DNA of 6,671 nucleotides from Candidatus Heimdallarchaeota archaeon (GTDB taxonomy: Archaea; Asgardarchaeota; Heimdallarchaeia; JABLTI01): assembly GCA_023128635.1 (NCBI GenBank), contig JAGMDP010000041.1, forward strand, positions 1-6,671. The letters run 5' to 3'. Below, in pieces: positions 506-3,220 of this stretch (positions within the stretch are counted from its first letter, which is position 1; each line of letters begins with the position of its first letter). The notes under the pieces are model-generated. The model did no database searches, was not told the origin of the DNA, and worked only from the letters and a program-made list of their open reading frames with translations. The translations under genes were made by a program, and so were the position numbers.

Positions 506-925
506 ATGGCTGAAACTAAAAAAATGGCTATCGTTGTACATTCAGGTACACTTGATTTAGCCTATCCACCATTAATGCTCGCTGCAGCAGCAGGAGCCAG
601 TGACATTGAAGTAGATATCTTCTTCACTTTCTGGGGCTTAAACCTCTTAAAGAAGAAAGGACTCAAACGAGCAAAGCTCGGTGGTGCTTGGAGACTAGGT
701 ACTGGTATGATGAAAATGATGATCAAACGAACCGGCATGGCAACCTTACCAGATCTATTAGAAGCTGTTATGGAAACAGGCAAAGTAAGACTTTGGGCTT
801 GTACCGCAACCATGGATATAATGATGGTCAAAAAAGAACAACTCATTGACGGATTAGAAGGTTACATGGGAGCAGCAGGATTTTTAGATATTGCTGCAGA
901 TTGTGACATACAATTATTCATCTAA
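506..925 (+). CDS. dsrE2: DsrE2-like (DsrE/DsrF/DrsH-like family) sulfur-transfer protein
   Basis: This 139-residue protein matches the DrsE_2 type of the DsrE/DsrF/DrsH superfamily. The N-terminal strand MAIVVHSGTLDLAYPPLMLAAAA leads into a membrane-facing helix. EVDIFFTFWGLNLLKK (residues 35-50) is the family hallmark. LWACTATMDIM (residues 96-106) holds Cys99, the expected sulfur-binding cysteine, followed by the typical KKEQLIDGLEGYMGAAGFLDIAADCDIQLFI end. A second cysteine, Cys133, is near the C-terminus. DsrE2 proteins are thought to pass persulfide sulfur to or from TusA, often near the membrane, in sulfur-oxidising and other sulfur-trafficking systems. The methionine-rich stretch at residues 68-78 (MMKMMIKRTGM) is a variable region. 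The stop is 12 bases before the tusA ATG, so both are probably co-transcribed. Family assignment is firm; the physiological sulfur pathway is inferred. Confidence 0.9.
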   Translation: MAETKKMAIVVHSGTLDLAYPPLMLAAAAGASDIEVDIFFTFWGLNLLKKKGLKRAKLGGAWRLGTGMMKMMIKRTGMATLPDLLEAVMETGKVRLWACTATMDIMMVKKEQLIDGLEGYMGAAGFLDIAADCDIQLFI

Positions 926-930
926 GGTGA
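926..930 (+). promoter_or_regulatory. Ribosome-binding site fixing the tusA start
   Basis: GGTGA follows directly after the dsrE2 stop codon and lies seven bases before the ATG at 938. It matches the archaeal 16S rRNA 3' end and favours ATG 938 over the in-frame ATG at 947. Confidence 0.7.
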
Positions 931-937
931 CTTTTAA

Positions 938-1177
938 ATGACTGATATGCCAACTGCGGATAAAACAATTGATTGTCGTGGTATGCAATGTCCTATGCCA
1001 ATCCTAAAAGCTAAGAAAGAGATACTAAAAATCGAAATAGGCCAAACATTGGAAGTTCTTTCTAATGATGCTGGTTCTAAAGAAGATTTTCCACGGTGGG
1101 CTAAACGCACTGGCAACGAATTTCTTGGCGTCTTTGAAGACGATGACACTCATTACTTTATAAAAAGAAAGGTATAA
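938..1177 (+). CDS. tusA: TusA/SirA-like sulfur-carrier protein
   Basis: This 79-residue protein has the diagnostic TusA signature DCRGMQCPMPILKAKKEI at residues 12-29. The CPxP motif is at 18-21, and Cys18 is the persulfide-carrying residue. IGQTLEVLSNDAGSKEDFPRWAKRTGNEFLG (residues 34-64) is the conserved second half of the two-layer alpha/beta fold. The length is typical for the family. TusA proteins are central sulfur carriers that exchange sulfane sulfur with DsrE-type proteins in tRNA thiolation, cofactor synthesis or dissimilatory sulfur metabolism. The gene follows dsrE2 with a 12-base gap holding a GGTGA ribosome-binding site, and a long U-tract follows its stop, so the two form an operon. 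No rhodanese, Hdr or tRNA-thiolation gene is visible to show which pathway is served. Confidence 0.93.
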   Translation: MTDMPTADKTIDCRGMQCPMPILKAKKEILKIEIGQTLEVLSNDAGSKEDFPRWAKRTGNEFLGVFEDDDTHYFIKRKV

Positions 1178-1244: not shown

Positions 1245-1260
1245 CGGTAAACTTTAAAAG
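1245..1260 (+). promoter_or_regulatory. TATA box and BRE-like element of the 5S rRNA gene
   Basis: CTTTAAAAG at 1252-1260 is a strong archaeal TATA-box match, preceded by a purine-rich CGGTAAA that could be the TFB-recognition element. The expected start, about 25 bases on, is near 1280, immediately before the terminal stem of the RNA. This supports independent transcription with a very short leader. Confidence 0.6.
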
Positions 1261-1281: not shown

Positions 1282-1437
1282 CGCAGAAACTCATCACCGG
1301 AAGTTAAGCCTTCAAACGTAGTGGTAATTACTGATCTGAGCGATCGTTCGGGAACATCATTAAGCTGCGTTGCGACGCGGTCAAAGCTGGAGGGTAACAC
1401 CCGGACTCGTTCGATCCCGGAAATGGTGAGTTTCGTG
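1282..1437 (+). ncRNA. Precursor of the permuted 5S rRNA with terminal stem and likely bulge-helix-bulge splice site
   Basis: The new ends of the RNA pair with each other: 1286-1296 (GAAACUCAUCA) with 1424-1434 (UGGUGAGUUUC), 11 pairs of which one is G-U. Three more pairs follow outward if A1285 is bulged. Inside this stem, CCGG 1297-1300 pairs with CCGG 1417-1420, leaving AAA 1421-1423 bulged on one strand and AAG 1301-1303 on the other. That is a 3-nt bulge, 4-bp helix, 3-nt bulge, the motif cut by the archaeal tRNA-splicing endonuclease after the second bulge base. The predicted cuts are 1302/1303 and 1422/1423. Joining the inner ends gives CCGGAA|GUUAAGCC, the normal 5S sequence. No inner helix follows the AAG bulge, so the motif is of the relaxed bulge-helix-loop kind. 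The stem and spacing are seen in the sequence; cleavage and ligation are inferred. Confidence 0.8.
1303..1422 (+). rRNA. rrf: Circularly permuted 5S rRNA (predicted 120-nt mature circle)
   Basis: All five 5S helices can be drawn, in rotated order. Helix I is 1364-1370 with 1375-1381, closed by loop UGCG 1371-1374 where normal 5S has its free ends. Loop A (CAAAGC, 1382-1387) matches the usual CAUAGC. Helix II is UGGAGG 1388-1393 with CCUUCA 1309-1314. Helix III is CCGG 1401-1404 with CCGG 1417-1420, bulged AA 1421-1422, then C1400-G1303 and A1399-U1304 across the junction, with a 12-nt loop C at 1405-1416. Helix V is 1319-1325 with 1356-1362. Helix IV is 1331-1339 with 1344-1351, with a bulged U1337 and a GCGA tetraloop at 1340-1343, as in other archaeal 5S RNAs. 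The loop E strands are AAUUA and GAAC. 1303-1422 is exactly 120 nt, the usual 5S length. 5S rRNA sits in the large-subunit central protuberance with uL18 and uL5. No 16S or 23S gene is adjacent. The RNA may stay circular or be opened at the UGCG loop. Confidence 0.88.
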
Positions 1438-1438
1438 C

Positions 1439-1457
1439 CTTTTGATCTCTCTTTTTT
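1439..1457 (+). terminator. U-tract terminator of the 5S gene
   Basis: CUUUU and, after GAUCUCUC, UUUUUU follow the terminal stem of the 5S precursor within 25 bases. The strong stem followed by U-runs is a convincing end point for the transcript. It lies just before the stop codon of the convergent minus-strand gene. Confidence 0.6.
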
Positions 1458-1877: not shown

Positions 1878-3176
1878 TCACGGAAAAGCTGATTTTAGGA
1901 ATTCAAAAATGTGTTTCCTGGATATCTTTGATTCACCCCTTACTCGAGGGCTAAAAACAAAGCCTACTCTTCCAACTTTTGTTTCTTTCTTGCGAGAGTG
2001 TTTTAATAATTCAAACATGACTTTGTAACCCTTTGGGCGGAAACCTTTCGGATGTTTTTCTATAACCATTTTGGAATATTCAGTTTCTCCACCGAAGAAT
2101 CCACTCATAACATCTCCACAACTCGCAGAGCGATGAATCCAATGAGAAAATTTCCCTATAACGCTTGCCCCCCAAGATATTACTCGTCTTGAGAAAGGCC
2201 AATCGGGGATTTCATCTCTTTCACCTATGACGAAATTAAATCCTTCCCGGAGTCTAATAGCAATCTCTCCTACCTTCTCTGGTGGGTGTTGAAAATCACA
2301 ATCCATAACAATATAGTATTCAGTTTTAACCATCTTGATGGCATCAAGCACACTAATAGTTAATCCATGAATTTCTTCTTTTTCTCTATCTAGTAAAAGG
2401 AAATCGGGATTCGTTTCACTGAATTTGCGAACTTGTTCTCTCGTACCATCTTTTGATCCATCATCAGCAACAATGAGTTTTATTCCTTTGTAATTCTCAT
2501 TCATGTGTTCCATTAAAGGACCAATGTTTTCATTTTCATTAAAAGTTGGAGTGACTAATGTAATATCGCTAAAATCCATATCAGGAGGAACTACTATTGG
2601 TTCTTCCGGAACTTTTTCCAACACATCAAATGTCCAAACTTCATTCCACATATAATTCCAGAATACTGTAATAATGAATGCAATTGCACTTGCAGGCACA
2701 GTTGCCCATCTATCTGATGAAATTACCATTAAGAATAGTGTTTTGAAACCTGTAGTCAATATGTATTTTAGTATGGCTCCTGATGCACCAACTAAAGCAT
2801 ACTTAAGGAACTGTGTAACAACTTTTTCTGATTTGGCTTCGCCGAAAGTCCAAACTTTGTTAAGGACATAATTAGACAAAGTAGCAGCTGCAATGCCAAC
2901 AGCAATTGCCATCAAATCAATATATGTAAAACTAAAGATTCCCCATAAATTATGAGGTACTTCTATAACAGGAGAGTTAAACTTATACAAAATGAATTCT
3001 GCAAGATTAAGAAACGCTAAATTAATTCCCAATCCTATTAATGATACAATTGAGAATTTTAGCAACCGATTTTTAAAACCAACACCTAATCGTTTGAAAC
3101 GATCCTTAATACTGGTTTTTGGAACCTCATCCTTAGTAACTGAGTCATTTGTTAACTGGGATTGCTCATCCTGCAT
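1878..3176 (-). CDS. GtrA-like membrane domain fused to C-terminal GT2 dolichyl-phosphate-sugar synthase domain
   Basis: This is a 432-residue protein. After a charged, hydrophilic N-terminus (about residues 1-40), residues 42-183 form a four-helix GtrA-like domain with its internal two-fold repeat. Each half ends in a matching motif, NYVLNKVWTF (102-111) and NYMWNEVWTF (174-183). After a proline-rich linker, a GT2 domain runs from about 204 to the end: TPTFNENENI, VADDGSKDGT (236-245), the metal-binding DCDFQHPPE (292-300), GERD, DVMSGFFGG and GESKIS. These are dolichol-phosphate mannose synthase motifs, predicting transfer of a sugar from a nucleotide sugar to a polyprenyl phosphate for glycosylation. 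Archaeal relatives commonly have GT2 first and GtrA last, so the order here is reversed. ATG 3176 is preferred because AGGAG lies 10 bases upstream; a TTG at 3203 would add nine residues but has no ribosome-binding site. Confidence 0.88.
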   Translation of the reverse strand: MQDEQSQLTNDSVTKDEVPKTSIKDRFKRLGVGFKNRLLKFSIVSLIGLGINLAFLNLAEFILYKFNSPVIEVPHNLWGIFSFTYIDLMAIAVGIAAATLSNYVLNKVWTFGEAKSEKVVTQFLKYALVGASGAILKYILTTGFKTLFLMVISSDRWATVPASAIAFIITVFWNYMWNEVWTFDVLEKVPEEPIVVPPDMDFSDITLVTPTFNENENIGPLMEHMNENYKGIKLIVADDGSKDGTREQVRKFSETNPDFLLLDREKEEIHGLTISVLDAIKMVKTEYYIVMDCDFQHPPEKVGEIAIRLREGFNFVIGERDEIPDWPFSRRVISWGASVIGKFSHWIHRSASCGDVMSGFFGGETEYSKMVIEKHPKGFRPKGYKVMFELLKHSRKKETKVGRVGFVFSPRVRGESKISRKHIFEFLKSAFP

Positions 3177-3220
3177 GTTTGTGTTTCTCCTGAATGTAGT
3201 CAAAATCTAACAAGCTATTA

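Follow-up and report, generated by a model that had tools for sequence, protein, structure and literature searches.

A circularly permuted 5S rRNA gene with a predicted splicing signal at its ends in Heimdall-type Asgard archaea

Introduction

Asgard archaea are the closest known relatives of complex cells. In a stretch of 6,671 nucleotides from a Candidatus Heimdallarchaeota archaeon (assembly GCA_023128635.1, contig JAGMDP010000041.1), referred to here as the window, a 5S rRNA gene had been predicted from the letters alone, with its structural elements in rotated order. This locus raises the question of whether a 5S gene opened at loop C can be the working gene of an archaeon and, if so, how its transcript would regain the conventional 5S sequence. 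PMC8813620 states that 5S genes "could not be predicted" in closed Heimdallarchaeum genomes; in our reading, a rotated gene order is the likely reason.

A 5S rRNA gene in rotated order

The 149-nt element at window positions 1286–1434 is a 5S rRNA gene, holding the conserved sequence and helices I–V in rotated order. Along the DNA, an outer helix strand, CCGG and AAG are followed by the 3' strand of helix II and the helix V/IV arm, then by the 3' strand of helix I, UGCG, the 5' strand of helix I, loop A and the 5' strand of helix II, and finally by loop B, helix III with loop C, AAA and the other outer helix strand. Every element named in the original prediction was found there, and all 40 drawn pairs (outer helix 1286–1296/1424–1434 plus helices I–V) are standard. 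One assignment had to be corrected: CCGG at 1297–1300, taken for the 3' strand of helix III, is really a second copy, helix III being possible locally between 1401–1404 and 1417–1420. The prediction had included neither this second copy nor the probable splicing signal formed by the ends, and it had not mentioned that the permutation is widespread in the phylum and has more than one break point. The features of the window are the following.

506..1177, + strand: dsrE-like gene (506–925) and tusA-like gene (938–1177), conserved upstream neighbours
1253..1258, + strand: TATA-box-like TTTAAA, a putative promoter element 50 nt before the predicted exon start
1286..1296, + strand: outer (intron-side) helix, 5' strand, 11 bp, pairing with 1424–1434; double changes at all 11 pairs in the wide set
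1297..1300, + strand: CCGG, 5' strand of the 4-bp central helix, predicted to be removed; pairs with 1417–1420 in the minimum-energy fold
1301..1303, + strand: bulge AAG, 3 nt; predicted cut between 1302 and 1303, giving a linear-type 5S as product
1303..1422, + strand: predicted mature circle, 120 nt (5S rRNA); R2 match 1302–1422
1309..1314, + strand: helix II, 3' strand, pairing with 1388–1393 (pairing and covariation)
1320..1361, + strand: helix V / loop E / helix IV arm with GCGA apical loop at 1340–1343 (pairing and covariation)
1365..1380, + strand: helix I with tetraloop UGCG at 1371–1374, the site of both ends in linear 5S
1381..1400, + strand: loop A, helix II 5' strand (1388–1393) and loop B (pairing; R2 match)
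1401..1420, + strand: helix III (1401–1404/1417–1420) and loop C (pairing, folding and covariation)
1421..1423, + strand: bulge AAA, 3 nt, unpaired between two helices in the precursor's minimum-energy fold; predicted cut between 1422 and 1423
1424..1434, + strand: outer helix, 3' strand (pairing and covariation)
1452..1457, + strand: T-run read in the sequence, possibly an archaeal terminator

Positions 1417–1420 have a double role, as a strand of helix III and as the 3' strand of the precursor's central helix. The family names given to the two upstream genes are those we presume from their likeness to dsrE and tusA. On the minus strand, an ORF at 1878–3203 encodes what we take to resemble a GtrA-like membrane domain fused to a family 2 glycosyltransferase.

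The call in the window is independent of permuted sequences, since the covariance model on which it relies (R2) was built from linear Asgard 5S genes only (15 of the 26 extracted) and then rotated at loop C. This rotated-order scan, a check of the kind that the prediction had proposed, gave a single match in the window, at 1302–1422, with a high score (73.2 bits, E 8.9e-24), and R2 matched 19 of the 19 sources tried, the window among them. In normal order, Rfam yielded no family over the window at E≤1, linear-order RF00001 included; the prediction had been that a linear-order search would report two partial hits or nothing. The presence of a permuted 5S gene in the window is practically certain.

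Conservation of the locus among close relatives

An exact gapped pattern run over genome contigs gave 10 hits, nine in Asgard MAGs (eight Heimdallarchaeota and one Asgard group) and one in Nocardioides, the latter being interpreted as a pair of linear 5S copies that meet near an N and set aside. For archaeal phyla other than the Asgards, coverage consists of this one exact-pattern contig scan. The same permutation, which it had been proposed to look for in related genomes, is thus present in nine of them and, as described below, across the phylum. The window and its nine relatives align without gaps at 95% mean column identity, and dsrE- and tusA-like genes adjoin the 5S in 9/9 related loci, with protein identities of 65–94%. 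RF00001 exceeded its cut-off in none of the nine relatives; weak matches occurred in three, all on the permuted locus itself, and among 14 control genomes the same family was matched in 12 and exceeded the cut-off in 11. In G012, a genome of 3.3 Mb without an RF00001 match over the cut-off, the permuted 5S sits on a contig of 3.33 Mb.

Upstream, AAACTTTAAA is found in the window and in all nine related loci, and the TTTAAA at 1253–1258 would correspond to a transcription start near 1280. When TATA boxes were sought in every clade, no sharp peak emerged, the box being clear only in the window's clade, and a scan for bacterial-type promoters and terminators gave nothing useful. Of 92 distinct loci, 71 have at least five T in the 80 nt that follow.

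Pairing, covariation and folding

Within the first ten sequences (nine distinct), 360 of 360 cells pair and seven pairs show double changes. Phylum-wide, in an alignment of 91 distinct sequences that had been fitted to the structure, 95.1% of the cells pair (shuffled mean 59.4%) and covariation scores 0.796 (0.204 when shuffled), neither value being reached by any of 500 shuffles; changes on both sides affect 39 of the 40 pairs (shuffled mean 36.3; reached by 8/500 shuffles). Helix I of locus L008, for instance, carries a compensatory change to CUGCAC-AAUG-GUGCGG. The earlier view that all helices pair and that the RNA looks like a working one is borne out by pairing, covariation and conservation, which support a permuted 5S gene under selection in archaea.

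Free-energy folding alone did not yield the whole 5S fold, either for the precursor or for the 120-nt circle. The minimum-energy fold of the precursor comprises the outer helix, an unpaired AAA and the CCGG/CCGG helix, with the 5S interior absent, and the precursor's stability exceeds that of shuffled sequences only moderately (z -2.5; equalled by 5 of 200). Folding of the circle recovers helices I–III and not IV–V, the drawn 5S structure reaching -19.6 kcal/mol against -30.6 for the best circular fold; helices IV and V therefore rest on covariation.

A relaxed bulge-helix-bulge and the junction it predicts

The ends of the element form a relaxed bulge-helix-bulge, so classified because the exon-side helix of the full motif is missing. 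An 11-bp outer helix abuts a 4-bp helix between CCGG (1297–1300) and CCGG (1417–1420), and three bases stay unpaired 3' of each strand (AAG and AAA). In a bulge-helix-bulge, the canonical cut falls after the second bulge base. Applied to the window, canonical cuts give G1303–A1422, a product of 120 nt whose junction ...GAUCCCGGAA^GUUAAGCC (^ marking a cut or join) restores the conventional 5S sequence and is present among 18 distinct linear junctions. Because of the direct repeat CCGGAA, several cut registers would lead to the same product in the window. L007 and L010 have CUGG in place of the 5' CCGG, and in L054 the removed bases would be AC and the kept bases AA, as in linear 5S. The central helix shows compensating changes, appearing as CCGG/CCGG, CUGG/CCAG, CGUG/CACG, CAGG/CCUG, CCGA/UCGG and others.

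The agreement between motif and junction was assessed on 97 sources, which gave 98 aligned matches, 89 of them distinct in the junction region, after exclusion of two truncated loci and of near-copies belonging to the window's clade. As null, 5' and 3' pieces were dealt among genomes; it does not fall to zero because relatives share sequence. Judged by pairing alone, a strict motif (4/4 central pairs and at least three outer pairs) is present in 66 of the 89 distinct loci, against a null mean of 15.0 and at most 24 in 200 deals. In 57 of these 66, the cut pair set by the motif ranks first among 81 at restoring a linear 5S junction (chance about 4.0%), against a null mean of 11.6 and at most 21 (200 deals); in the other nine it is not the best one. 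A looser motif (3/4 central and at least five outer pairs) gave 64/89 and an agreement of 55/64, with nulls of 12.3 and 5.6 (100 deals). These figures come from a sliding junction score, which replaced a fixed-register one (agreement 40/67) because loci with the motif one base away had been miscounted. The strict motif was not found in 23 of the 89 loci, several of which have 3/4 central pairs, and in one Heimdall subgroup a leader hairpin seems, by eye, to lie inside a more distant outer helix.

The enzymes that such a motif would call for are encoded in the relatives: among the 14 related genomes tried, the splicing endonuclease (PF01974) was matched in all 14, with two matches in 11, and RtcB in 13. 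Such a pair of genes would be compatible with an endonuclease of the heterotetrameric kind, whose specificity is relaxed (PMC4731332).

Proposed route to a circular 5S rRNA

A short precursor, from about 1280 to 1450, would be transcribed from its own promoter, and its ends would pair into the relaxed bulge-helix-bulge made of the outer helix, CCGG/CCGG and the 3-nt bulges. The tRNA splicing endonuclease would cut after 1302 and 1422, RtcB would ligate A1422 to G1303, and the 3' CCGG could then re-pair with 1401–1404 to form helix III. The product would be a 120-nt circular 5S rRNA whose helix I hairpin is capped by a UNCG tetraloop. Splicing of the permuted 5S to a ring is strongly suggested by the motif and its junction; transcription, cutting, ligation and the persistence of the circle in the ribosome are steps that we infer. 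Taken as a whole, the element is very probably the gene that supplies a Heimdall-type Asgard archaeon with its 5S rRNA, permuted at loop C and with a transcript that is spliced to a ring.

In 69 of 87 distinct cores the helix I loop has four nucleotides, and in 55 of 87 it is UNCG (UUCG 36, UGCG 11, UACG 7, UCCG 1); 56 of 87 cores measure 120–122 nt. Some cores carry insertions of about 30 nt. These sit in the helix I cap, loop C or helix IV, and related genomes combine them differently (L154, L156, L160, L163 and L166–L173).

Distribution over the phylum

Among 227 genomes of the phylum, 120 carry a permuted and 59 a linear 5S, and 48 were assigned to neither; because the filters were strict and many genomes are incomplete, the last number does not equal 48 genomes without a 5S. 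In the window's (Heimdall) class, 55 of 58 genomes are permuted. A model built from ten sequences, namely the window and its nine relatives (R1), matched 54 of these 58 at E≤1, with only a partial match at a contig end in G025, and found no permuted 5S in G022, G028 and G048; G036 was counted on the strength of copies truncated at contig ends. In the same 58 genomes, RF00001 gave a match at E≤1 in 40, three of them over the cut-off (G045, G034 and G017).

Over all 227 genomes, R1 matched 114 at E≤0.01, and RF00001 matched 94 at E≤0.01, with 64 over the cut-off. The permuted count leaves out six R1 matches on linear genes (G064, G065, G066, G068, G207 and G219) and takes in G093, G094, G097, G162 and G036 and, as read by eye, six genomes with the second break point and one with the third. 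The linear count leaves out five RF00001 genomes (G017, G034, G045, G110 and G134), and its 59 members rest on the RF00001 score, 28 of the sequences having been inspected. Absences are uncertain because the class and phylum searches used stricter filters that lose weak matches, R1 missing G093, G094 and G097 in this way. Two other Asgard MAGs are described with a 5S gene in PMC9723677, which fits the occurrence of linear genes in some of the phylum's genomes.

Some hits required a decision of their own. Native linear 5S genes were rejected for G045, G110 and G134, where the hits lie beside bacterial LSU rRNA and represent contamination, and for G034, where the hit overlaps a permuted copy. 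Contigs L015, L082 and L333 are bacterial 23S-5S rRNA contigs binned into Asgard MAGs, that of L082 with a group I intron in the bacterial 23S gene. G017 holds a linear 5S of 48.3 bits on a 9 kb contig (L016), with a tRNA match 115 nt long nearby, in addition to permuted copies; this linear gene may be native or a contaminant. Copy number also varies: three linear 5S genes stand in tandem on a 4.36 Mb contig of G087 (L104), at a spacing of about 375 nt, G058 (L053) has permuted 5S in tandem copies, and several permuted copies lie at contig ends in G034 (L110/L070/L017) and G036 (L334–L336). Permuted units in tandem also spell out units in linear order, which is a possible route between the linear and the permuted form.

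A quick, unrooted RpoB tree was made from 140 of the 201 genomes with a match (86 rows permuted at the first point, six at the second, 35 linear and 13 unlabelled). On it, permuted versus linear takes five changes, the labelled rows of the Heimdall class are all permuted, and the second break point arises twice, among first-point rows. The tree has long branches, an unresolved base and a Heimdall class that is not one branch, and gain and loss of the permutation cannot be separated because it has no root. In G034, G189, G104 and G179, a single in-frame TAA or TAG lies inside the RpoB match; such stops may reflect error or stop-codon recoding, the latter being named for two Asgard lineages in the title of PMC9723677.

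Other break points

Seven genomes open the 5S elsewhere, again at such a motif as judged by eye, six at a second point and one at a third. In five of them (G118, G119, G122, G124 and G125; L180–L184), the gene starts inside loop C and ends just after the 5' strand of helix III, with the motif CUGG-AA^C-CAUCCGAACCCGG ... CCCGG-UC^A-CGC and, by eye, a contiguous outer helix of only 3 bp next to it. The canonical join, CCCGGUC^CCAUCCGAACCCGGAA, equals the stretch that stays uncut in relatives opened at the first point (L139, for example). G099 (L179) resembles these five, its motif being CUGG-AA^A/CCAG-AA^U and its outer pairing AACA/UGUU, and in G084 (L186) the break lies in loop B, with CCGA-AAA/UCGG-AAA. 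R1 gave weak matches to L179, L180, L184 and L186 and did not find L181–L183 at all.

There is, in our view, an even chance that the ribosomes of most Asgard lineages, and perhaps already those of their common ancestor, normally contain a 5S in the form of a covalently closed circle, the break point being movable once the RNA was a ring (3' side of loop C, 5' side of loop C, loop B) and some clades having gone back to a linear gene.

Alternative explanations

It is scarcely conceivable that the element is a rearranged pseudogene, an assembly error or a chance likeness, the work being done by a normal 5S gene. Most of the genomes are indeed metagenome assemblies, and the linear 5S of the permuted genome G017 scores over the cut-off; however, the covariation is strong, the ten loci keep 95% mean column identity against 65–94% for the neighbouring DsrE and TusA proteins, the G012 locus is on its 3.33 Mb contig in a genome where RF00001 gave nothing over the cut-off, and three linear hits in permuted genomes adjoin bacterial 23S rRNA as contamination. 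Quite improbable, too, is a permuted RNA that undergoes trimming alone and functions in linear form, both ends lying in loop C and the outer helix serving as a processing or stability stem. Permuted mitochondrial 5S rRNAs are reportedly linear molecules of this kind, with ends in loop C. That permuted organelle 5S rRNAs exist (as cited in passages of PMC10085705 and PMC7283268) favours such a molecule, as does the finding that E. coli can grow with a 5S whose native ends are linked by 4 nt and whose loop C is opened, when it is tethered to 23S rRNA at H84 (PMC7283268). Trimming without splicing nevertheless leaves unexplained the 3-nt bulges, the compensating 4-bp helix and the linear-type junction, together with the similar motifs at the second and third break points. 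A splicing-free counterpart of the mitochondrial form was rejected on the motif statistics (66/89 and 57/66), which it leaves unaccounted for.

A circle that is an intermediate, its helix I loop later being cut out to give a mature 5S with normal ends, is possible but rather unlikely. Permuted tRNA genes mature in this manner (PMC10085705, in its relevant section), by a widely held view the circular 16S and 23S rRNAs of archaea are opened again before they are assembled (PMC12918454), and the helix I loop varies in length and sequence. On the other hand, the predominance of 4-nt loops (69/87) and of UNCG (55/87) on a compensating helix I looks like a kept cap, circular 23S rRNA with a GNRA tetraloop cap is described inside ribosomes in the same source, and no second processing motif was noticed in an inspection that was unsystematic. 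A retained cap would point to a ring in the mature ribosome, which we consider likely.

Implications

If a circular 5S is the normal form in most Asgard lineages and eukaryotes arose within or beside the Heimdall lineages, then the eukaryotic linear 5S either descends from a circular one or branched off earlier. The presence of the permutation and the position of the break point are rare genomic changes, and as such can test Asgard relationships and Heimdall-origin models of eukaryotes. A circular Asgard 5S would also show that tRNA-type splicing was adopted for a universal rRNA, and that nature uses a topology engineered in E. coli.

Comparison with known systems

Neither an archaeal permuted 5S gene nor a 5S maturing as a ring from one was found in the openly licensed literature searched, and the original prediction, too, knew of no described archaeal case. 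As far as that literature goes, a permuted archaeal 5S gene that would make a ring by splicing is new. Circular 5S as such is not new in archaea, since circular isoforms are reported in Halobacterium, where they were validated by RT-PCR, and in two Sulfolobus species, one isoform spanning the whole 5S (PMC12558985, selected passages). Their ends vary, and they are possibly degradation products, as proposed by Danan 2012; the genes are apparently ordinary, and those passages describe no permuted gene or splicing motif.

The topology of the permuted gene was engineered in E. coli cp5S, where the native ends are joined by a 4-nt connector and the RNA is opened in loop C or D; two constructs support growth, but they differ in being artificial and tethered to 23S rRNA (PMC7283268, in the portion on these constructs). 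In some mitochondria, which are organelles of eukaryotes, the order of the 5S gene is rotated likewise (through mentions in PMC10085705 and PMC7283268). The relatives of the window's element lie on Asgard MAG contigs, beside dsrE/tusA-like genes. The permuted mitochondrial 5S of Valach 2014 is said to have been described with neither a splicing motif nor a ring.

Archaeal 16S and 23S rRNAs have the bulge-helix-bulge, the endonuclease and RtcB in common with the proposed 5S route, whereas their genes stand in normal order (passages of PMC12918454 and PMC7758197). Circular 23S rRNA in ribosomes and circular 16S and 23S transcripts in Asgards are reported there; such processing is shown for 16S and 23S, not 5S rRNAs, in the corresponding part of PMC12918454.

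The closest precedent is the SRP RNA of Thermoproteus, which, as described in sections of PMC4731332, is permuted and circular and which, like the Asgard 5S, was a "missing" universal RNA with a rotated gene. In T. tenax, leader and trailer form a bulge-helix-bulge that is cut by the tRNA splicing endonuclease, and joining restores a functional loop. The TATA box of that gene lies 26 nt before the start, followed by a 23-nt leader, a spacing that resembles the upstream arrangement in the window. The two cases differ in that the SRP RNA is not an rRNA and that its circularity and cleavage were shown by experiment, whereas those of the Asgard 5S are predicted. Unlike the SRP RNA of T. tenax, the permuted 5S is spread over a phylum and opens at several break points.
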